Shown piece after piece: positions 921 through 14,600 of a stretch of DNA of 64,000 nt; positions within the stretch are counted from its first letter, which is position 1; the number at the start of each line of letters is the position of its first letter. This DNA is from Paenibacillus sp. HW567 (GTDB lineage Bacteria; Bacillota; Bacilli; Paenibacillales; Paenibacillaceae), in the NCBI RefSeq assembly GCF_000374185.1, contig NZ_KB910518.1, forward strand, positions 2,241,687 to 2,305,686, written 5' to 3'. Made by a program: the position numbers and the translations under genes. Under the pieces are notes generated by a model. That model did no database searches. It worked only from the letters and a program-made list of their open reading frames with translations, and was not told the origin of the DNA.

Positions 921-1823
921 ATGGCGGACATGGATTTAAGGAAGAGGAAAAATTACAGCAAGCTGTGGGGCCATCTGCTGTTCCTGGGACCCTCCATCCT
1001 GATTTTTATCATTGTGGTGGTCATTCCCTTTGCAATCAGCCTGATCTATTCCTTCAGTAATTGGAACGGTATCTCCGGGGAGGTTCAATTTGTGGGGCTG
1101 GACAATTTCCGGGATATTTTCTCCGGGAAAGCCAGGTTTCTGGATTCGCTCTGGTTCACCTTGCGGATGACCGCAGTCTGTGTGTTGTTTATCAATCTGC
1201 TGGGTCTCGTTCTTGCCGTCGCCTTGACCTCCCGTATTCCGCTCCGCAGCCCGCTGCGGGCCGCTTATTATTTGCCGCAGACGATGGGCGGGCTTATTCT
1301 CGGCTTCATTTGGCAGTTCATCTTCGTGTCGGGTTTGCCGGTGATCGGCGAGAGGCTGAATCTGGACTTTCTTGCACAGCAATGGCTCGGGACAGAGAAC
1401 ACGGCTTTCGCAGCCCTGGTCATCGTCAATGTATGGCAGAATGCGGGGTATGTGATGGTCATTATGATTGCCGGCCTGGCCGGTATTTCCTCGGAGCTGC
1501 TGGAATCCGCTAAGGTGGAAGGCTCGGGTGCGCTTCATACCCTGCTCAGGATCAAGCTGCCCCTATGCATTCCGTATATTACCGTAGCTTTATTCTGGAC
1601 CTTGTCCAGCGCCCTGAAGATGTTCGAAATTAACCTGGCGCTGACCAAGGGCGGCCCGTACGGCTCGACCACCTCGATGACACTTAATATCTACACCGAT
1701 GCTTTTGCGAATAATAAATACGGGCTGGCTACAGCCGAAGCGCTGGTGTTCTTCGTCATTATCATGATGATCACTTCTGTTCAGATGTATCTCGGCAAGC
1801 GAAAGGAGAACCAGCTCTTATGA
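921..1823 (+). CDS. sugar ABC transporter permease (MalF/UgpA-like)
   Basis: A 300-residue inner-membrane permease of the binding-protein-dependent carbohydrate family CUT1. It has six predicted membrane segments, beginning near residue 20 (LLFLGPSILIFIIVVVIPF), and the cytoplasmic EAA loop near residues 192-215 (ESAKVEGSGALHTLLRIKLP), which contacts the ATPase. The start is ATG 921 with AAGGGAT upstream. It overlaps the next permease by 4 bp (ATGA). No ATPase is encoded here, so the system probably uses a shared MsmX/MsmK-type ATPase from elsewhere, as is usual for CUT1 systems in Firmicutes. The adjacent GH3 enzyme suggests a glucoside or short oligosaccharide as substrate. Confidence 0.92.
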   Translation: MADMDLRKRKNYSKLWGHLLFLGPSILIFIIVVVIPFAISLIYSFSNWNGISGEVQFVGLDNFRDIFSGKARFLDSLWFTLRMTAVCVLFINLLGLVLAVALTSRIPLRSPLRAAYYLPQTMGGLILGFIWQFIFVSGLPVIGERLNLDFLAQQWLGTENTAFAALVIVNVWQNAGYVMVIMIAGLAGISSELLESAKVEGSGALHTLLRIKLPLCIPYITVALFWTLSSALKMFEINLALTKGGPYGSTTSMTLNIYTDAFANNKYGLATAEALVFFVIIMMITSVQMYLGKRKENQLL

Positions 1824-2647
1824 AAAAGCTCCGCGTAGGTCTACTTGCCGGATTCATCCTTGCATTGGCCGGAGCAGTGCTCTTTATCGCTCCGCTGTGG
1901 ATTATGTTCATGAACTCCTTCAAGCCGCTTAGCGACATTCTCGCTGATCCGCTCCGGCTTCCGGCCACATGGAGCTTAGATAACTACCGGGAAGCCTGGC
2001 AGGTGCTTGATATCCCGGGAGTGGTGAGGAATACGGCAATCCTCTCCCTGGGGGCGGTCAGCGGCATCCTCCTGTTCGCCACAATGACAGCTTATTGGTC
2101 GGAGCGGCATCCTACAGTTATCTCCCGCATCTTCGGCTATCTGATTATGCTGTCGGTGCTTATCCCCTTCGCAACGATCATGCTCCCCCTGGTGAGGGTG
2201 ATGAAGTTCCTGCACCTCAACAATACCATCGGCGGAGCAGTGCTGGCTTATTGGGGAATTGGGTTTGCCTTTGCTTTCTTTTTAATCCGCAGCGGGGTGA
2301 AGACTCTTCCTTATGAGCTTGAGGAGGCTGCGCAAATTGACGGCTGTGGCAGGGTATACATCTTTTTCAGAATTGTGTTCCCGCTCCTTGGTCCGACGGT
2401 ATTTAGTGTGTTTATCATGGACATGTTCTGGGTCTGGAACGATTTTATGATTCCGCTGGTGCTGCTGAATAATGAGAAGCTCAGTACCGTTCAACTGGCG
2501 GTCAACCGCTTATTCGGAATGTATAACAGCCGTTGGGATGTGGCTCTGCCTGCTCTAACCATGAGCATGCTTCCAATAATTATTGTCTTTATTCTGTTCC
2601 AAAGAAAGATTGTCGGCGGCGTGTTGGCGGGTTCTGTAAAAGGTTAA
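1820..2647 (+). CDS. sugar ABC transporter permease (MalG/UgpE-like)
   Basis: The 275-residue second permease of the CUT1 importer. It is translationally coupled to the first permease through an ATGA overlap. Hydrophobic segments start at about residue 9, and the EAA loop lies near residues 165-185 (ELEEAAQIDGCGRVYIFFRI). The C-terminus (KIVGGVLAGSVKG) is the conserved end of MalG-like proteins. It would form a heterodimeric channel with the upstream permease and receive substrate from the lipoprotein at 2691. Confidence 0.92.
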   Translation: MKKLRVGLLAGFILALAGAVLFIAPLWIMFMNSFKPLSDILADPLRLPATWSLDNYREAWQVLDIPGVVRNTAILSLGAVSGILLFATMTAYWSERHPTVISRIFGYLIMLSVLIPFATIMLPLVRVMKFLHLNNTIGGAVLAYWGIGFAFAFFLIRSGVKTLPYELEEAAQIDGCGRVYIFFRIVFPLLGPTVFSVFIMDMFWVWNDFMIPLVLLNNEKLSTVQLAVNRLFGMYNSRWDVALPALTMSMLPIIIVFILFQRKIVGGVLAGSVKG

Positions 2648-2690
2648 GGGAATAAAAAAATGTACCAGGTACAAACCGGGAGGAACTGAA

Positions 2691-3983
2691 ATGATGGAGA
2701 GAAACCTAAAGGCAAGCACGGTTGTATCGGTATTTGTGGGAATGTCGGTGCTGCTCACAGCATGCGGCGGCGGGACGAAGGAAGCGCAAGGAAATACAGC
2801 GAAGGGTGCTTCCGCAAACAACGTCAAAACGATTCATATTTATCAAACGAAGATCGAGATTGACGAGGCTCTGAAAAAAACTGCTGCCGCCTATACAGCG
2901 CTTCATCCTGATGTTCAGTTTGTCATTGACTCTGTCAGCGACAATTACAGCACCGGGCTTAAGACGAAGCAGGCGAGCGGGGAAATGCCCGATATTTTTA
3001 CAGTTATGGGCAACCAGGATTTGAAGCTGTGGCAGTCCCAGCTTGAGGATTTGTCGGATCAGGCGTGGACCAAAGACATGATTGACCTCGCGAAGCAGGG
3101 GATTACCGGTGACGACGGTAAAGTGTACGGATGGCCGGTATCGGTTGAGGGGTACGGGTATGTGTATAACAAGAAGCTTTTTGATCAGGCCGGGATTTCC
3201 GAAGTGCCTACCACGCTTACAGCGCTAAAGGAAGATGCCCTGAAATTGAAGTCTGCCGGAATACAGCCGCTGATCGGTGCATATATGGACTGGTACCAGT
3301 CAGGAAACTTCCTTGTCAATATGGGAATTGCCCGCCAGCCGGACCCGCAGGCTTTTATCAAAGGCTTATATGACGGAACCTCCACATTTGTAGGCAATGA
3401 TATTTTCAAGCAGGTAGCCGAATTTATCAAATACGACTTCAGTCAGGGTAAGAACGGGCTCAGCACCAATTTCAACTCCCAGACCACTGCTCTGTTCGCC
3501 GGGCAAGCGGCTATGACCCTCGGCGGCAACTGGCTGCAGCCAAGCATCAGCGGGAACCCGGATCTCAGCATGGGACTGATGCCGCTGCCTGTCAATGACA
3601 ACCCGGAAGAGAACGACAAGCTGTATGTGGGCGTCACCGGTTACTGGGGAATCAGCAAGGATTCTGAAGTGAAGCAGGAGGCTAAGGATTTCCTGAACTG
3701 GCTCGCCACGACTCCGGAGGGACAAGCCCATGTCACCAAGGACATGCAGATGATTCCGGCGTTTAACAGCTTCTCTGCGGACGATACGGATATTGGAGCG
3801 CTGGGAGCGGATCTGTCCCGTTATGTGAAGGCAGGCAAAATCTATGGCTCCTTCAATTCGTATTACCCGGATGGCGTTGCCCAGGCTTTCGGTGAAGCTG
3901 TCCAGAAGCTTGTCGGCGGCAAGGTGGATACAGACGGCTTCCTGCAGGAGCTGCAGAACGAGTGGGACCGGCTGGCGAACTAA
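2691..3983 (+). CDS. sugar ABC transporter substrate-binding lipoprotein
   Basis: A 430-residue extracellular solute-binding protein, family 1. The signal peptide ends in a lipobox LTAC, with the lipidated cysteine at residue 25, so the protein is anchored to the outer face of the membrane. The mature part follows the two-lobed sugar-binding pattern (YGWPVSVEGYGYVYNKKLFDQAG near residues 147-170; GQAAMTLGGNW in the middle). The start at 2691 follows GGGAGG at 7-bp spacing. It is the third gene of the importer operon. Substrate specificity cannot be read from sequence alone. Confidence 0.92.
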   Translation: MMERNLKASTVVSVFVGMSVLLTACGGGTKEAQGNTAKGASANNVKTIHIYQTKIEIDEALKKTAAAYTALHPDVQFVIDSVSDNYSTGLKTKQASGEMPDIFTVMGNQDLKLWQSQLEDLSDQAWTKDMIDLAKQGITGDDGKVYGWPVSVEGYGYVYNKKLFDQAGISEVPTTLTALKEDALKLKSAGIQPLIGAYMDWYQSGNFLVNMGIARQPDPQAFIKGLYDGTSTFVGNDIFKQVAEFIKYDFSQGKNGLSTNFNSQTTALFAGQAAMTLGGNWLQPSISGNPDLSMGLMPLPVNDNPEENDKLYVGVTGYWGISKDSEVKQEAKDFLNWLATTPEGQAHVTKDMQMIPAFNSFSADDTDIGALGADLSRYVKAGKIYGSFNSYYPDGVAQAFGEAVQKLVGGKVDTDGFLQELQNEWDRLAN

Positions 3984-4013
3984 TACGATATTATAGCGGA
4001 GATGAGGGTAATC

Positions 4014-6353
4014 ATGGTCAACGATATAGATAAGCTTATCAGTCAAATGACCTTGCATGAGAAGGTCATGTTATGCACCGGAGACAACATGTGGAAGACG
4101 AAAGCCTATGAGCATCTGGGTATCCCATCCATTCTGATGAGCGACGGTTCAAGCGGTGTCCGTTTTCAAAAAAACTCCGATGTCAGCGGAGACATCTCCT
4201 TTTATGAATCCATCAGCGGGAGCTTCGATAGTGCGGAGGCGGTGGCAAATACCCATGAGGCAACCTGCTTTCCATCCAACTCTACTGTCTCTTGCTCATG
4301 GAACCCGGAGCTGGTCTATGAGATTGGTCAGGCGATTGCCAGAGAATGCCGGCGTCTCGGCATCCATCTGCTGCTGGGGCCGGGCATGAACATCCGCAGG
4401 CATCCCCTGACGGCCCGGAATTTTGAATATTACTCCGAAGATCCATGTCTGACGGGCGAGATCGCGGCAGCGATGGTGAAGGGCGTACAGGATGGCGGAG
4501 TAGGGGCATCTCCGAAGCATTTCGCCTGCCATAATTCGGATACGAAAAGAACCCGGGTGAATGTGACCGTAGAGGAGAGAGCGCTGCGGGAGATTTACTT
4601 GGCCGGCTTCGAACGCGTGGTCCGCAAAGCGCGTCCGGCTACCATAATGAGCGCGTACAATAAGATCAACGGGGTGCAGACCAGTGAGGACCCGGAGCTG
4701 CTGAACGGGATTCTGCGCGGAGAGTGGGGATTTGACGGCGTGGTGGTCAGCGATTGGGGGGCAGTTAAGGATGCTGCCGCCGCCACGCGGGCAGGGCTTG
4801 ATCTGCAGATGCCCTTGTCCTTAAGCTCATCAGCCTATCTGGAGAACGCTGTGCGGAATGGGGAGCTGGATGAAGAGCTGATTGACCTCAGAGTCAAGAA
4901 TATTGTGCAGCTAATCTTCAGATTGACAGAGAACTATGAACCGCTTGCGGAAGTGGATTTCACGGAGCATCACCGGCTTGCCCGCGCGGCAGCGGCGGAA
5001 TCCATCGTTCTGCTCAAGAATGAGCAGGGGGTGTTGCCGCTCGCACCGGGCAAGGCCAAGAAGCTCGCAGTCGTTGGACGGTTGGCTGCCGAGCCTTTGT
5101 ATCAGGGGACAGGCTGCGCCATCGTCAATGCCAAGGAGGTGGACATTCCTCTGGAGCACATCCGCAAGCTGTGCCCGGAGGGAATGGAGGTGCGGTATGC
5201 TCCCGGCTACCATGCGGACGGCAGCACCGATGCGGCACTGCTGGAAGAAGCTGATCTTCTCGCCCGTGAGGCGGATGTGGTTCTGGTCTTTGCCGGGGCG
5301 TTCCTGCCGGAGGAGAGCGACGATTACAACCGGAAGGACATGGACATTGAGCCGGGGCACGAACAGTTGATAGCTGCGATCTGTGCGGCTAATCCGAATA
5401 CGGTGCTGATTCTGGCTAACGGAGAATCGGTAATGATGCCCTGGGCCGATCAGGCAAAAGCTGTGCTTGAGACCTGGTTCAGCGGAGAGGGCATGGGGGA
5501 AGCGCTCGCCACAATTCTCTTCGGCCACGTGAATCCTTCCGGCAAGCTCTCTGCGACCATTCCAGAGAAATTGAGCGATACGCCAGCCTTTCTTAGCTTC
5601 CCCGGCAATCTGACTGAGCTGCATTACAGCGAAGGAATCTATGTCGGCTACCGTTATTACGATATGAAGGGGATCGCTCCCCGTTATCCGTTCGGCCACG
5701 GGCTCTCTTACACGCAATTTGCGTACAGCAACCTGACGCTGTCCGAACCGGAGGTCCATTTACCTTCAGTCCTTAAGCTTACTGTGGACATTACCAATAC
5801 CGGTGAGGTGTACGGCAAGGAGGTTGTTCAGCTCTATCTTGCCCAGCCTCATTCGAAGTTGCCCCGGCCGCCTCAGGAATTGAAAGGGTTCGCGAAGGTG
5901 GCTCTGCACCCGGGCGAGACCAAATCTGTGGAGTTCCTGCTGGAGGAACGGGATTTCGCCTGCTACAATCCCGAATGCGGGGAGTGGAGTGCGGCGAGCG
6001 GCAGCTATACCTTCCGCGTTGGAGCTTCCAGCCGCGACATTCGGCTTACGGCTGAGGTTCAGGTGAGCAATCCGGCGGAGCCGGTAGCGAAGTTCAGAAC
6101 CGACAGCGGGTTCCCGGAATTGCTACAGAACGAGACGGCCCGGCAGATTTTTTACCAATTTATGATCGAGAACGGGCTGGTTACTCCCGAGCAGGTGGAT
6201 AACAAGCTGGACGAGCTTCTGGCAGGCTCCTTCTGGGGCATCCTGTCCTTCATGGATATGCACTCAGCGGGTGTGATCACTTATGAGAAGATGAACGACG
6301 TAATTCAGCGGATCAATGCCCTGCTTGAGGAAGCCGCTCCCGGCAGGCAATAG
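4014..6353 (+). CDS. beta-glucosidase, glycoside hydrolase family 3
   Basis: A cytoplasmic GH3 enzyme (no signal peptide) of about 779 residues. I chose ATG 4014 over the in-frame ATG 4002 because GAGATGAGGG sits at proper spacing before 4014, while 4002 lies directly against its GGAG. The N-terminal TIM barrel carries the nucleophile motif VVVSDWGAV with Asp about residue 247. The central alpha/beta sandwich holds a candidate acid/base glutamate in LPEESDDYNR. A C-terminal FnIII-like domain follows (QLYLAQPHSKLPRPPQELKG). As the last gene of the importer operon, it would cleave imported beta-glucosides or beta-linked oligosaccharides. The exact linkage is not determined. Confidence 0.93.
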   Translation: MVNDIDKLISQMTLHEKVMLCTGDNMWKTKAYEHLGIPSILMSDGSSGVRFQKNSDVSGDISFYESISGSFDSAEAVANTHEATCFPSNSTVSCSWNPELVYEIGQAIARECRRLGIHLLLGPGMNIRRHPLTARNFEYYSEDPCLTGEIAAAMVKGVQDGGVGASPKHFACHNSDTKRTRVNVTVEERALREIYLAGFERVVRKARPATIMSAYNKINGVQTSEDPELLNGILRGEWGFDGVVVSDWGAVKDAAAATRAGLDLQMPLSLSSSAYLENAVRNGELDEELIDLRVKNIVQLIFRLTENYEPLAEVDFTEHHRLARAAAAESIVLLKNEQGVLPLAPGKAKKLAVVGRLAAEPLYQGTGCAIVNAKEVDIPLEHIRKLCPEGMEVRYAPGYHADGSTDAALLEEADLLAREADVVLVFAGAFLPEESDDYNRKDMDIEPGHEQLIAAICAANPNTVLILANGESVMMPWADQAKAVLETWFSGEGMGEALATILFGHVNPSGKLSATIPEKLSDTPAFLSFPGNLTELHYSEGIYVGYRYYDMKGIAPRYPFGHGLSYTQFAYSNLTLSEPEVHLPSVLKLTVDITNTGEVYGKEVVQLYLAQPHSKLPRPPQELKGFAKVALHPGETKSVEFLLEERDFACYNPECGEWSAASGSYTFRVGASSRDIRLTAEVQVSNPAEPVAKFRTDSGFPELLQNETARQIFYQFMIENGLVTPEQVDNKLDELLAGSFWGILSFMDMHSAGVITYEKMNDVIQRINALLEEAAPGRQ

Positions 6354-6602: not shown

Positions 6603-6948
6603 CTCCGGCAACGGCAGAACTGCCGTTGTTGGAGGCCGCGCGGCTGCTTTGCCCGGGAACAACGGTAAAACTGCCGTTGTTGAAGTACGGGCGGCCGATT
6701 TGCCCAGGAACAACGGCAGAACTGCCGTTGTTGGAGGCCGCGCGGCTGGTTTGCCCAGGAACAACGGCAGAACTGCCGTTGTTGGAGGCCGCGCGGCTGC
6801 TTTGCCCGGGAACAACGGTAAAACTGCCGTTGTTGGAGGCCCAGCGGCTGGTTTGCCCCGGAACAACGGTAAAACTGCCGTTGTTGGAGCCCAGCGGCTG
6901 GTTTGCCCGGGAACAACGGCAGAACTGCCGTTGTTGGAGTCCGCACAA
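6603..6948. repeat. seven tandem 51-bp palindromic repeats
   Basis: Seven copies of a unit whose core has 11-bp arms AACAACGGCAG and CTGCCGTTGTT around AA. The common right-arm start CTGCC falls at 6620, 6671, 6722, 6773, 6824, 6875 and 6925, a period of 51 bp except for one 50-bp step. Copies 2, 5 and 6 carry GGTAA in the left arm instead of GGCAG. The spacer has its own dyad (GCCGCGCGGC or CCAGCGGCTGG). The 50-bp unit breaks every reading frame, so this is not a repeat protein. It lies between the convergent 3' ends of the GH3 and guanine deaminase genes. Confidence 0.95.
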
Positions 6949-10120: not shown

Positions 10121-10876
10121 TTATCTAGCCAACCATCCGCCATCCACATTGAGAATGTGGCCGTTCAGGTAGTCGGAAGCAGCGGATGCCAGGAATACAG
10201 CAGGTCCTTTAACATCTTCGGCAGTTCCCCAGCGTCCGGCAGGAATGCGGTCGAGGATGGAGTCGGAACGGTTCTGGTCGGCACGGATTGGTGCAGTGTT
10301 CTCAGTAGCCATGTAGCCTGGAGCGATGGCGTTGATGTTCAGACCGGAGCCAGCCCATTCATTGGCAAAAGCTTTGGTCAGACCCGCTACACCGTGCTTA
10401 CTCGCAGTGTATCCAGGTACGTTGATGCCGCCCTGGTAGGAGAGCATGGAGCAGATGTTGATGATTTTACCGTTTCCTCTTTCCAGGAAGTGGCGGCCGG
10501 CGATTTGCGACAACAGGAACACTGTGTTCAGGTTCAGGTTGATAACGTCGAACCAGTCTTTTTCGCTATGGTCTTTGGCTGGAGTGCGGCGGATCATGCC
10601 TGCGCAGTTCACGAGAATATCTACTTTGCCTGTGAAGGCAACCGCTTCGTCGAACATGCCTTGCAGCTTCGTGTGATCGCCCAGATCTCCAGCGATGCTC
10701 AGTGCTTTTACGCCAAAGGCCTCGGCAGCCGCTACCGTCTCAACACTTGGATTGAGGGAAGCGGAGATGACGTCTGCGCCTGCTTCTGCAAATGCAAGAG
10801 CGATCCCTTGTCCAAGACCTTGAGCAGCGCCCGTTACGATTGCTGTTTTACCTGCCAAACTGAATAAAGATGACAT
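10121..10876 (-). CDS. kduD: 2-dehydro-3-deoxy-D-gluconate 5-dehydrogenase (KduD)
   Basis: A 251-residue short-chain dehydrogenase. The cofactor glycine motif TGAAQGLGQG is near residues 16-25, NAG is at NCAGM, and the catalytic Ser-Tyr-Lys is in ICSMLSYQ and YTASKHG. In the pectin/uronate pathway KduD reduces 2,5-diketo-3-deoxygluconate to 2-keto-3-deoxygluconate. It is the last gene of the kduI-deoR-kduD operon, 16 bp after the regulator, with an AAAGGAGAG site. The placement with kduI supports the assignment within a very broad enzyme family. Confidence 0.9.
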   Translation of the reverse strand: MSSLFSLAGKTAIVTGAAQGLGQGIALAFAEAGADVISASLNPSVETVAAAEAFGVKALSIAGDLGDHTKLQGMFDEAVAFTGKVDILVNCAGMIRRTPAKDHSEKDWFDVINLNLNTVFLLSQIAGRHFLERGNGKIINICSMLSYQGGINVPGYTASKHGVAGLTKAFANEWAGSGLNINAIAPGYMATENTAPIRADQNRSDSILDRIPAGRWGTAEDVKGPAVFLASAASDYLNGHILNVDGGWLAR

Positions 10877-10892
10877 ATGATATTCTCTCCTT

Positions 10893-11663
10893 TTAATTGT
10901 TCATTTGAATTCCGCATTCGATATTTGCGCCTATACTCCGGAACTGCTCTACCGTCTCGGACGCAAGCCCGCTGTCGGTCAGCAGCACATCAACCTCCTG
11001 TAGTGAAGCGAACGTGCGCAGTGCAGTATGCCCGAATTTGTGGTGGTCAATGGCGGCGAATACGGTGCGGGCGGTGGATACCAGGGCTTGCTTGTATTCA
11101 ATGAAGTCACCGGTGTAAATCGACAGCCCATGTTCAATATGAACGGCTGTAGCCGACAGAAAAGCTTTCTCTATATTTAGCTTTTGGACATAGGAGACGG
11201 CTTCGGGACCGGCCAGCATATTGCGGACACGGTAACCCCCGGGAACGACGAGACGGATGTTGTCTCTCTGAACCAGCTCGCTGATGATGTACACATCGTT
11301 GGTGATGACCGTCAGCGGCATATTGTCCAGCCTCCGGGCAATTTCAAGCGTGGTGCTGCCGCCGTCCAGCGCAATGATGTCGTCCTTTGCGATATGGGCC
11401 AGCGCGAGCTGCGCAATCTCCGTTTTTTCATCGGAATATTTAACCAGCGGGTTCCTCAAGGGCAAAATACCGAACTGATCGCTTTGTGCCAGCACGGCTC
11501 CGCCGTGGACACGCATAATCAGCCCCTGCTCCTCCAGCTTGCTTAAGTCCTCACGGATTGTTTTTCCTGTCACCTGGAGCTTGTCGCTCAGCTCATTCAC
11601 CGTTACATCCTTCTGGTTGAGCATAACTTCCATAATCATCTCGTGCCGCCGTATCGGGTTCAT
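10893..11663 (-). CDS. DeoR family transcriptional regulator
   Basis: A 256-residue repressor. The N-terminal DeoR helix-turn-helix runs about residues 5-58 (VNELSDKLQVTGKTIREDL) and is followed by the DeoR C-terminal sensor domain (ALDGGSTTLEIARRL, GGYRVRNMLAGPEAV), which usually binds a phosphorylated sugar intermediate. It lies inside the kdu operon between kduI and kduD, so it is co-transcribed with the genes it probably controls. The effector, perhaps a 3-deoxy-uronate derivative, is inferred only. Confidence 0.88.
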   Translation of the reverse strand: MNPIRRHEMIMEVMLNQKDVTVNELSDKLQVTGKTIREDLSKLEEQGLIMRVHGGAVLAQSDQFGILPLRNPLVKYSDEKTEIAQLALAHIAKDDIIALDGGSTTLEIARRLDNMPLTVITNDVYIISELVQRDNIRLVVPGGYRVRNMLAGPEAVSYVQKLNIEKAFLSATAVHIEHGLSIYTGDFIEYKQALVSTARTVFAAIDHHKFGHTALRTFASLQEVDVLLTDSGLASETVEQFRSIGANIECGIQMNN

Positions 11664-11697: not shown

Positions 11698-12531
11698 CTA
11701 TTGTAATTCCTTCATACCTACGGGGTCCATATCATCATAACGTTTGTTGTCTCCGGCCATACTCCAGATGAAGGTATAGTTGTGCGTACCCACACCGCTG
11801 TGGATGGACCAGCTTGGGGAAATAACCGCTTGCTCGTTGTGCATAACGATGTGGCGGGTTTCGGTAGGCTCGCCCATCAGGTGGAACACAATGGAATCGT
11901 CCGGCAGATCAAAGTAGAAGTAAGCTTCCATCCGGCGCGGGTGCGTATGGGAAGGCATTGTATTCCACATGCTGCCCGGTTTGAGCTGGGTCATCCCCAT
12001 CACGAGCTGCGCGCTTTGCACGCCATTCGCATGAATGAAGCGGTGAATGGTACGTTCGTTGGAGTTCTCCAGGCCGCCCATTGCGCCGGATTCGGACTCG
12101 GCCAACGTAGTCTTCGTAGTAGGGTAGGATTGATGTGCAGGAGCTGAGTTCAGGTAGAACTTCGCAGGCTTGGCGCTGTCCGCGCTTTTGAAAACAACAT
12201 CCTTGGCGCCTTGGCCTACGTACAGACACTCTTTGAAATCTATTTCATATTCTGTTCCGTCAACCACAACCGAGCCTTTGCCTCCGACATTGATAACACC
12301 CAGCTCGCGGCGTTCCAGGAAGTAAGTAACTCCAAGCTCTTTCAGGTCAGTGGTGAGCACGACGTCTTCTTTTACCGGATTGGCTCCGCCCACGATCATT
12401 CGGTCTTCATGAGTCAGGACAAGCTTCAATTCATCTGGAGCAAAAATGACGGGAATGTGGAACTCCTTGCGCAGACGTGCGGTGTCAAATTGCTTCACTT
12501 CATTAGGATGGGATGCGAAACGTCTTTCCAT
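11698..12531 (-). CDS. kduI: 5-dehydro-4-deoxy-D-glucuronate isomerase (KduI)
   Basis: About 277 residues. Start ATG 12531 has GAAGGAGATT upstream and gives the usual KduI N-terminus (MERRFASHPNEVKQFDT). The in-frame ATG at 12600 lacks a ribosome binding site. Cupin metal ligands are visible in MPSHTHPRRMEAYFYFD and in SIHSGVGTHNYTFIWSM. The enzyme isomerises the unsaturated uronate product of pectin or glycosaminoglycan lyases to 2,5-diketo-3-deoxygluconate, feeding KduD. A TATAAT-like -10 lies on the minus strand at 12652-12657. A weak cre-like sequence (12 of 14) at 12673-12686 could bring catabolite control. Confidence 0.95.
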   Translation of the reverse strand: MERRFASHPNEVKQFDTARLRKEFHIPVIFAPDELKLVLTHEDRMIVGGANPVKEDVVLTTDLKELGVTYFLERRELGVINVGGKGSVVVDGTEYEIDFKECLYVGQGAKDVVFKSADSAKPAKFYLNSAPAHQSYPTTKTTLAESESGAMGGLENSNERTIHRFIHANGVQSAQLVMGMTQLKPGSMWNTMPSHTHPRRMEAYFYFDLPDDSIVFHLMGEPTETRHIVMHNEQAVISPSWSIHSGVGTHNYTFIWSMAGDNKRYDDMDPVGMKELQ

Positions 12532-12709
12532 TGAATGTTCAATCTCCTTCGCAAACATATTTTTGTTCGTATAGGTACAATTTAATTCATATATGTTCAT
12601 TTGACAAGAGATAATCTTTTTTAGTGCGTTTATTTTAGTTTATTTATTGGGATTATACGTTGCTATATGAACCGAAAGCGTGCACAATAGAGGTGAAATG
12701 AGGATGAAT

Positions 12710-12753: not shown

Positions 12754-14433
12754 GTGGGGGAACAGAAGTCTGCGGTGAGTGCCTATCAGGCCCGCCACAA
12801 TGAAATCATCTATTATATAGCCGTTGAAGCCGAACGCCGTCCGCTGCTGGACAGCGGCCTGTGGTTCCACGATGATGTGCGCAATAATTTTTATTATGCT
12901 TCCTATCTGTTTGCGGCTGCTGTTGATCCGGATTTTGAGCCGCCTTTTGAGCGGGAGGCGGCCCGCCGCAAAGCAGAAGCAGTCTTGCTGGAAACCGTGC
13001 TGCTCCAGAATCGGGAGCCCGGCACGGAATTATACGGCCATTGGCCGCTGGGGCTGAATCCTGTGCCGCGCGAAGCCGCACCGCACGAGCTGCCAGTGGA
13101 GATCATGGGCAGCCTGATCGTCTGGTTCAACAAGCATTACGGAGGCCGGTGTAGTGCCGGACTGCGGATTGCTTTTCATACGGCTATCGGGCATATCTAC
13201 CGCAGCGGCTTCTTCCGCAAGCCGATGGTTTACTACGGGCATCATGAAGCCAAATATACGGCGGCCAAGCTGATCTTCGGTAACCTGTTCGATGACGAGG
13301 AGCTGCTTGCGGACGGGCGGCAGAGCCTGGAGAACACACTGGCTTACATCCGTGAAAAAGGGATGCCGGAGTACGGCAGCCTGCCGTGGTTCTGGCATTG
13401 GGTGCAGGCGTTCACCTGCGCTTGGGAACTGGAGGAGGACAGCGGTCTGAAAGCAACGCTTGCGGAAATGCTGGATTACCTGTGGAACGAGCGGGGACAG
13501 TGGTATCTTCAGGGCGCCTGGGCGGGAGCGCATTCCCGGGGCTGGCCGCATGATGTTCCATCGGACGCCAATGTGCTGCACGACTATGTGCAGTTTGGAG
13601 ATTTCCAGCTTCCTGAAGGCATGCCGCGCACCGAATATGCCGGATTTCTGTTCTATGAAGCCCCGGAGCGGGTGCGGTCTGCCGCATTGAACCGCCAGTC
13701 GCCGGTAGAAGTCACAAGGGTTACACAGAAGGTCGTTCCTGAAGCTTCAGAGACTCAACCGCTGCTTCATACCTATGCTTATATAACCGGGAGCTTTGCA
13801 GCAGGCGGCATCTGGGAGCGGGTTGAGGAATTCGACAATGAACAGCTCCGCTGGGCTTTTTCGTTGCCGGTATCTCCCGAGTATGCTGTGAACCGGCTGT
13901 ACTTTTTTCACCCCGGGGAAGGTTATCGGGAAGGCGATCCCCGCCATCAGAGCCGTTATATGGAGGTGCTTTACCACAAGAACACGATTCTTGCTTTATT
14001 CCCTGTACCTCAAGGGGAGAAGGATACAATCATTGGTGTGCTGCCTAAAGGGAAGTGGATTAAGCAGCCTTCCGCGTTGTTCGGCCATGTGGGCGGCGTT
14101 TATTTTGCAGTATACCTGTCGCATTCCTATGAACTGCTCGAACGCGGGGATTACCTGGAGGTCTCCGTGCAGGGGATGCCGGGAGGTGTCGCAGTTGAGG
14201 CGGTCAGTGTTAAGGAGGCTGCGGAGCGGGGAATCGTTGGCGGACTTGCAGCTTTTGCTGAGGAATGGGGGCAGCATGCCCCGTCCTTTGATGTTGGGGC
14301 TGAGTTGAGGGTTAACTACGGCACTATCAATGGACAACTACTGGAATTACATGCCGAGGGCGATGCTTCTACGCGAGCTTTGCTGAACGGCAGTCCGGTC
14401 TCCTTGGAGCATTATTCTGTTATTGGCGGATAA
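12754..14433 (+). CDS. uncharacterised 559-residue protein, divergent from the kdu operon
   Basis: I do not recognise the family. The start is GTG 12754 after GGAGGGTGA. There is no signal peptide or membrane segment, so it is cytoplasmic. The N-terminal 320 residues are helix- and Trp/Tyr/His-rich (LWFHDDVRNNFYYASYLF, YYGHHEAKYTAAKLIF, LPWFWHWVQAFTCAWE), as in (alpha/alpha)-barrel carbohydrate enzymes. The rest looks beta-rich, with a WERVEEFDNEQLRWAFSLP segment. That helical-plus-beta layout resembles polysaccharide lyases and heparinase-like proteins, but this is inference from composition. Its position back to back with kduI suggests it makes or processes an unsaturated or acidic oligosaccharide inside the cell. 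Confidence 0.75.
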   Translation: MGEQKSAVSAYQARHNEIIYYIAVEAERRPLLDSGLWFHDDVRNNFYYASYLFAAAVDPDFEPPFEREAARRKAEAVLLETVLLQNREPGTELYGHWPLGLNPVPREAAPHELPVEIMGSLIVWFNKHYGGRCSAGLRIAFHTAIGHIYRSGFFRKPMVYYGHHEAKYTAAKLIFGNLFDDEELLADGRQSLENTLAYIREKGMPEYGSLPWFWHWVQAFTCAWELEEDSGLKATLAEMLDYLWNERGQWYLQGAWAGAHSRGWPHDVPSDANVLHDYVQFGDFQLPEGMPRTEYAGFLFYEAPERVRSAALNRQSPVEVTRVTQKVVPEASETQPLLHTYAYITGSFAAGGIWERVEEFDNEQLRWAFSLPVSPEYAVNRLYFFHPGEGYREGDPRHQSRYMEVLYHKNTILALFPVPQGEKDTIIGVLPKGKWIKQPSALFGHVGGVYFAVYLSHSYELLERGDYLEVSVQGMPGGVAVEAVSVKEAAERGIVGGLAAFAEEWGQHAPSFDVGAELRVNYGTINGQLLELHAEGDASTRALLNGSPVSLEHYSVIGG

Positions 14434-14571: not shown

Positions 14572-14574
14572 ACG

Positions 14575-14600
14575 AACGCCTAGAGGGGCGTTTTTTTTTG
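14575..14600 (+). terminator. terminator-like hairpin before the holin gene
   Basis: AACGCC TAGAG GGGCGTT followed by a run of T. It separates the small upstream reading frame from the lysis genes. Confidence 0.7.

Follow-up and report, generated by a model that had tools for sequence, protein, structure and literature searches.

An unnamed protein family with a predicted toroid-lyase fold encoded beside kduI in Paenibacillus sp. HW567

What does the 559-residue protein encoded back to back with kduI in Paenibacillus sp. HW567 contribute to the breakdown of uronates? KduI and KduD lead to 2-keto-3-deoxygluconate, which enters central metabolism through a kinase and the KDPG aldolase, and a previous interpretation made from the DNA letters (the sequence-only reading) had suggested that the protein could be an intracellular oligo-uronide lyase or hydrolase, possibly of a new class, feeding KduI. 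We followed up this suggestion in the window, i.e., the whole stretch of 64,000 nucleotides that was analysed, and in related genomes.

The target gene and its kdu neighbourhood

The target gene occupies positions 12754..14433 of the plus strand, from a GTG start at 12754 to a stop at 14433, and a GGAGGG stretch resembling a ribosome site ends 9 nt 5' of the start. In the comparison with its homologue L044, 66, 58, and 217 differences fall at codon positions 1, 2, and 3, respectively, over 558 codons, and the same pattern was found with the three other homologues compared, which argues that the target is a protein under selection. Both the coordinates and the codon pattern thus bear out a frame of 559 residues divergent from kduI, and the absence of a signal peptide also finds support, the N terminus not being hydrophobic (best 12-residue mean hydropathy 0.42 in the first 45 residues). 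A stem-loop resembling a terminator, with its T run, lies about 140 bp past the stop (14574..14593, plus strand), so that the target may be transcribed alone, although the scanned region has about as many such sites (7) as are expected in shuffles (5.7).

A scan of species genomes returned 114 relatives of the target, and 80 loci were kept. Matches at an E of ≤0.001 occur in 53 of 100 related genomes, 48 of which were taken to carry an orthologue, and in the class as a whole 19 of 398 sampled genomes match, all of them from the same family or order. The sequence-only reading could assign the protein to no family that it could name, and this was upheld across Pfam and NCBIfam (no match at E ≤10), PHROGs (no match at E ≤0.01), and the PDB sequences (chance level, best E 0.87). 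Equally, Pfam gave no meaningful match for 55 members of the target family (best chance match, E 0.024), none of the 55 matches the GH88/GH105 model PF07470 at E ≤1, and the target profile retrieved from the PDB sequences, at chance level, SAKe6BE-L2 (E 0.024) and two cyclophilin-type chains. No sequence match with the target was found among the solved PL33 and PL35 members (8r70 to 8r75, 8khv, and 8khw) by phmmer and profile search, while the same PDB sequence search does recover solved PL33 members for the PL33-like neighbour encoded at locus L209. The plasmid collection holds no match for the target, and the titles and abstract openings covered by our literature search include none concerning this gene.

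Upstream of the target and divergent from it lies kduI (5-dehydro-4-deoxy-D-glucuronate isomerase; 11698..12600, minus strand; NF002091, 444.3 bits against a cut-off of 250). Since the NF002091 match spans KduI residues 24 to 300, the gene probably starts near 12531, which would set the gap between kduI and the target at about 150 to 220 bp. On the same strand there follow a gene for a DeoR/GlpR-type regulator (10893..11663), which falls short of the cut-offs of several models for the DeoR family, and kduD (2-dehydro-3-deoxy-D-gluconate 5-dehydrogenase; 10121..10876; TIGR01832, 367.2 bits, cut-off 338.85). This arrangement, with kduI directly upstream and divergent, then deoR and kduD, is found in 32 of the 80 target loci, whereas 48 are devoid of kduI, including five in which the DeoR gene alone is kept at that place. 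In a second sample, the target lies within 3 kb of kduI in 37 of the 48 genomes with an orthologue.

As for co-occurrence, kduI is present in all 48 target-bearing genomes versus 34 of the 52 others (Fisher p 1.6e-6, shared ancestry ignored), and the target is absent from 34 of the 82 kduI genomes. From this count we dropped three weak kduI matches (G013, G024, and G033), four weak matches of the target (G083, G089, G090, and G093), and a gene remnant in G040, while G023 (truncated at a contig end) and G065 (with two matches in one open reading frame) were kept. Whether the gene always accompanies kduI had been proposed as a check, and the answer is negative, both by genome and by adjacency, so that a universal partner of kduI can be ruled out. 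On the 81-row tree, a quick tree with SH-aLRT support only, the states kdu, deoR, and other require two changes, and on a second, 67-row tree the kdu label requires four, the linkage with kduI being limited to one region of the tree. In G040 (L210, 8012-8332), kduI, deoR, and kduD are kept beside a frame of 106 codons that represents a fragment of the target (residues 391 to 465), which indicates that the target gene can be lost while the kdu genes stay. The main text of PMC12838403, a work on kdu clusters, does not contain the word "Paenibacillus".

A 10-bp-phased direct repeat, GTTYATTTNNGTTYATTT (12628..12645, plus strand), is common to the promoter regions and would be a natural candidate for the DeoR operator. 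Among the intergenic regions between kduI and the target or between deoR and the target, 37 of 38 reach a score of 14 or more out of 16 (expectation from dinucleotide shuffles, 0.15), a comparison that ignores relatedness and is partly circular because the pattern was derived from the same related sequences. The search of the whole genome is a separate check; it found the exact pattern once, at 12628-12645, and three more sites at one mismatch, with two matches for the reversed control. Furthermore, in five loci without kduI the target is still accompanied by both the DeoR gene and the repeat. Inside the kduI-target promoter region of Paenibacillus jilunlii, where the two open reading frames are 491 bp apart, repeats with another palindrome (AAGGGTA..TACCCTT) form an array (L031, 9413-9919).

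Predicted fold

The AlphaFold2 model of the target, built on a 55-sequence alignment (pLDDT 92.6, pTM 0.92), presents eleven helices in a toroid-like half (residues 10 to 312; 12781..13689, plus strand), followed by an antiparallel beta-sheet half (residues 318 to 544; 13705..14385, plus strand) with eighteen strands and two short helices, in agreement with the division into a helical and a beta-rich half that had been read from the sequence. HMM and structure-based searches had been proposed as a further check; the former named no family, and the latter placed the predicted fold in the polysaccharide lyase class. In particular, all 16 Foldseek matches of the model with the PDB at E ≤0.001 are toroid-class lyases or a related epimerase, comprising PL17, PL33, PL15, PL35, chondroitin AC, chondroitin ABC, and xanthan lyases (the last presumably PL8) together with human dermatan sulfate epimerase 1. 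The TM-scores are modest (0.21 to 0.48, query normalised) and the rmsd values high, so that the relation between the target and the lyases would be a distant one. Alignment with VIA-align gave Z values of 10 to 13 for the toroid-lyase class over about 400 to 470 residues, spanning both halves.

On the helical half alone, the toroids of other enzymes (endoglucanase CelA and drimenyl diphosphate synthase) also reach 10.9 to 11.8 in VIA-align; we take the structures 1kwf and 1cem to be GH8. For this reason, the beta half was predicted separately (pLDDT 91.2). Foldseek gave for it no match at E ≤0.001, the best being the PL17 structure 8bdd at 1.5e-3, and in VIA-align rows 1 to 31 consist entirely of toroid-class lyases, many of them variants of one enzyme, with Z falling from 10.3 to 8.6; next comes GH92 at Z 8.5, level with the lower-scoring lyases. 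The predicted models point to both halves belonging with the toroid-lyase class, the beta half more weakly, and hence to the two-domain lyase fold of an (alpha/alpha)n toroid and an antiparallel beta sheet. A library of viral structures yielded two matches at E ≤0.001, both lacking a named function (E 5.7e-6 and 3.4e-5). Of the new enzyme class that had been envisaged, therefore, what stands is a family unnamed in the libraries searched, while the fold is a known one, that of the toroid polysaccharide lyases.

The nearest known systems share this predicted architecture with the target and differ from it in sequence. The PL17 and PL15 oligo-alginate lyases (8bdd, 7bm6, 4nei, and 3a0o) have the same two-domain fold, and these families include exo-acting oligo-uronide lyases, according to PMC11921355; however, no sequence match connects them with the target, and they are 705 to 764 residues long against 559. 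The PL33 and PL35 glycosaminoglycan lyases are similar to it in fold and length (PL33 8r70, Foldseek E 9.5e-7; PL35 GAGase VII 8khw, VIA-align Z 13.0, rmsd 6.2, 414 residues aligned), and PL33-like genes are neighbours of the target in some loci.

Conserved residues and two sister families

Two sister families, B and C, came from weak matches in the first genome scan and were aligned with 23 (A2) and 9 (A3) sequences, respectively. In profile comparisons, family C is closer to the target (E 1.6e-26 over 406 columns; 496 columns in a second alignment) than family B (E 6.3e-15 over 342 columns; about 20 to 26% identity). Neither family is named by the libraries in the members scanned: none reaches a family cut-off in family B (five scanned with Pfam, two with NCBIfam) or among the nine sequences of family C (five with Pfam, six with NCBIfam), and against the PDB the family C profile has no match and the family B profile one chance match (E 0.88). 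In the plasmid collection, L120 of family C is unmatched and L127 of family B is matched by one Streptomyces replicon, with no annotated feature there.

Family C proteins (about 620 to 850 residues; L120 1494-3359 on the minus strand, L153, L154, L159, L162, L164, L172, and L175, among others) have Asn124-His125, Glu171, Tyr177, and Arg227 invariant in all nine sequences. PMC12088678 (PL35) and PMC11848413 (PL33) describe the catalytic set of these lyases as an Asn, a Tyr 53 to 54 residues further on (N192-Y246 in PL35 and N238-Y291 in PL33), and a His of the beta sheet. The Asn-to-Tyr spacing of family C is 53, equal to that of PL33 and near that of PL35, and by virtue of this spacing and of the invariant Asn-His and Tyr, its proteins appear to be good candidates for new lyases. 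Family B (L116, L127, and others) adjoins a GH88-Pfam gene in three of the four loci with a scanned neighbour (L127, L113, and L116) and an alpha-L-rhamnosidase gene in the fourth (L112). The window genome has one clear family B member, in L127, where the two genes lie on the minus strand at 1498-3288 and 3588-4628, the family B member just downstream of the GH88-Pfam gene.

The alignment of the target family itself comprises 67 rows, 65 of them different, with identities to the target as low as about 42%. Invariant in all of them are, in the helical half, H163, H164, K167, E206, Y207, W212, W214, H215, W216, Q218, R247, and R262, and, in the beta half, R356, E359, N362, E363, Q364, R366, W367, D395, R397, and H398. 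The latter, R356 apart, fall in the motifs EFDNEQxRW (residues 359 to 367; 13828..13854) and DPRH (residues 395 to 398; 13936..13947), both, like the helical motifs that follow, on the plus strand. Profile alignment sets His163-His164 (13240..13245) opposite the Asn-His pair of family C, Glu206 of the pair Glu206-Tyr207 (13369..13374) opposite the invariant Glu of families B and C, Trp212 of the motif Trp212-x-Trp214-His215-Trp216 (13387..13401) opposite the invariant Tyr of family C, and Arg262 (13537..13539) opposite the invariant Arg of both. Glu206 and Arg262 are thus common to the two sister families, and His164 is shared with family C; the other active-site residues fail to align with family B.

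The full Asn/Tyr/His set of the toroid lyases is therefore not present at the aligned positions of the target, which was aligned to the lyase residues through family C: Asn124 of family C corresponds to His163 and Tyr177 to Trp212 in all 67 rows, while His125 is kept as His164. By this route, the Asn/His and Tyr of PL17 and PL15 become His-His and Trp, and neither the Asn nor the Tyr of the PL33 and PL35 triad is retained. Near positions 212 to 215 the alignment may be out by one helical turn, in which case His215 and not Trp212 would stand at the place of the Tyr. The alignment with family B is ambiguous there, its invariant Tyr245 falling opposite Gln218, so that the replacement of Tyr by Trp rests on family C. 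The invariance across the 67 rows argues that the region has been maintained as a functional site in spite of the replacement of the lyase Asn and Tyr, and because both are replaced in every aligned member, the chemistry of the target is not readable from homology; the role as a uronide enzyme is for this reason held more firmly than the chemistry.

Genomic context, proposed role, and alternatives

Besides the kdu genes, other genes related to uronides occur in the flanks of the target, of up to 10 kb on either side. Of the 80 loci, 17 have a GH88-like gene there, two of them linked to kdu, a few of the matches being cut or weak, and a PL33-like gene is present in eight, one of them linked to kdu, and also in L209, L215, and L217, the last of which carries the same target protein as L092 and is thus not independent of it. 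Directly downstream of the target there is a KDPG aldolase gene in six loci, all of which also have kduI, and an AXE1-type acetyl esterase gene in 15; the GH88-like, AXE1, and aldolase figures are raw counts. In the branches without kduI, the target is often near PL33-like, GH88-like, or acetyl esterase genes. On the 67-row tree, the PL33 linkage requires five changes against a shuffled mean of 10.3, at least three of them forced by well-supported branches, and target and PL33-like gene lie within 15 kb of each other in four of 39 genomes (G047, G065, G081, and G086, assigned by reading of the search results), for which a rough chance estimate that ignores ancestry is 9e-5. The L209 stretch unites a PL33-like gene, a GH88-like gene, kduD-deoR, the target, a PfkB kinase gene, and a KDPG aldolase gene, with kduI at the usual place according to the genome search. 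Its PL33-like protein matches BT4410 (E 6.7e-38), and its GH88-like protein matches a solved unsaturated glucuronyl hydrolase (E 5.3e-76). The PL33-like proteins of Paenibacillaceae (L209 2613-4466, L085 19016-20896, and L092 990-2822, minus strand) are unnamed by NCBIfam, and the one of L209 is unnamed by Pfam as well.

Taken with the linkage to kduI and kduD, the toroid-lyase fold and the PL33-like and GH88-like neighbours support a part in the catabolism of oligo-uronides. We suggest, with a probability of roughly 0.5, that the target is a cytoplasmic toroid-scaffold enzyme acting on oligo-uronides, under the control of the DeoR-type regulator together with kduI and kduD, and likely feeding KduI through an elimination at C5. 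Oligosaccharides containing hexuronate would be imported and then processed in the cytoplasm by the target, alongside PL33-like and GH88-type enzymes where these are present; the target would cleave or prepare the oligo-uronide by beta-elimination, or a close variant of it, at C5 of the uronate; and the unsaturated uronate (4-deoxy-5-ketouronate) would then reach KduI. In the kdu-linked clade, the target, kduI, and kduD would be under the joint control of the adjacent regulator. Considered separately, a role in uronide catabolism seems likely, and the target probably feeds sugar acids into the kdu pathway, whereas for beta-elimination as its chemistry we would give slightly less than an even chance, the remainder going to hydrolysis, epimerisation, or another reaction. 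Thus, of the intracellular oligo-uronide enzyme that had been proposed, the cytoplasmic location and, by fold and linkage, the uronide role are supported, while the constant company of kduI is not.

Several observations weigh against this explanation, namely the lack of the lyase Asn and Tyr at the aligned positions in all 67 rows, the linkage to kduI in one tree region with many loci showing no evident uronate gene, the beta half with no Foldseek match at E ≤0.001 and with GH92 tied with the lower lyases, and the content of the window genome, where seven GH88-Pfam genes score above the cut-off and could supply KduI. Since one PL33-like gene beside a GH88-like gene is also present, at 1.62 Mb, the target would be one of several possible feeders of KduI and not the sole one.

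The missing Asn and Tyr would be expected of a glycoside hydrolase built on the toroid scaffold, releasing an unsaturated or saturated uronic acid, or a neighbouring sugar, from oligosaccharides by acid/base hydrolysis with conserved carboxylates. The candidates for these are D41, E116, E206, D267, D271, E294, E359, D361, E363, and D395, all of them invariant in the 67 rows except D361, conserved in 66, and the absence of a GH88-like gene from the flanks of 30 of the 32 kdu-linked loci would suit an enzyme that releases uronides. Yet lyases, with one epimerase, make up the whole set of 16 confident fold neighbours, and the genome has its seven GH88-Pfam genes elsewhere, so that we regard hydrolysis as rather unlikely. 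The one epimerase among those neighbours raises the question of a C5-epimerase of uronates that would turn oligosaccharides into substrates for other lyases or hydrolases. Human dermatan sulfate epimerase 1 (6hzn) ranks seventh in Foldseek (E 1.3e-6) and third in VIA-align (Z 11.9, rmsd 6.1, 453 residues aligned), again with no sequence match to the target. His164, through His125 of family C, would occupy the position of the His that acts as the base on L-iduronate in PL15 and PL21, as stated in PMC11848413; the same article reports that the epimerase is proposed to use Tyr261, whose presumed equivalent in the target is, by the indirect alignment, Trp212, and we consider epimerisation quite improbable.

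It could also be hypothesized that the target is not tied to uronates at all and has a different plant oligosaccharide, perhaps an acetylated one, as its substrate, the kdu neighbourhood being one local arrangement. The 48 loci without kduI nearby and the 15 with a downstream acetyl esterase gene speak for it, as does L214, where the target comes downstream of three genes whose products look secreted and have CBM96, CBM3, and beta-helix domains; other loci with no evident uronate gene place the target beside, for example, a methionine-type ABC importer or an alanine dehydrogenase, named by eye. The direct repeat shared with kduI makes this improbable in our view, as do the PL33-like and GH88-like genes that lie close to the target in branches lacking kduI.

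Returning to the oligo-uronide enzyme, it is tempting to go a step further and to propose, at somewhat worse than even odds, a new family of uronide enzymes in which a toroid without the lyase Asn and Tyr has a strictly conserved centre of His-His, Glu-Tyr, and Trp-x-Trp-His-Trp, carries out a different reaction (hydrolysis, epimerisation, or an unusual elimination), and is joined to KduI and KduD by its own DeoR operator. Fold class and pathway are familiar; what is new to Pfam, NCBIfam, PHROGs, the PDB, and the literature searched is the family with its active site. An enzyme family present in 48 of 100 related genomes is thus unnamed in the general libraries searched, as are its two sister families among the members scanned. 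Should it act on uronides, the catabolism of pectin- or glycosaminoglycan-type substrates in soil Gram-positive bacteria would gain a step, and the family would illustrate how far the active site of a toroid lyase can be rebuilt on the same scaffold.

Elsewhere in the window, in the gap separating an amidohydrolase gene from a GH3 gene, we could notice 6.6 copies of a 51-bp tandem repeat (6609-6944), the unit of which begins with the palindrome CAACGGCAGAACTGCCGTTG; the listed open reading frames that overlap it look like artefacts of the repeat.
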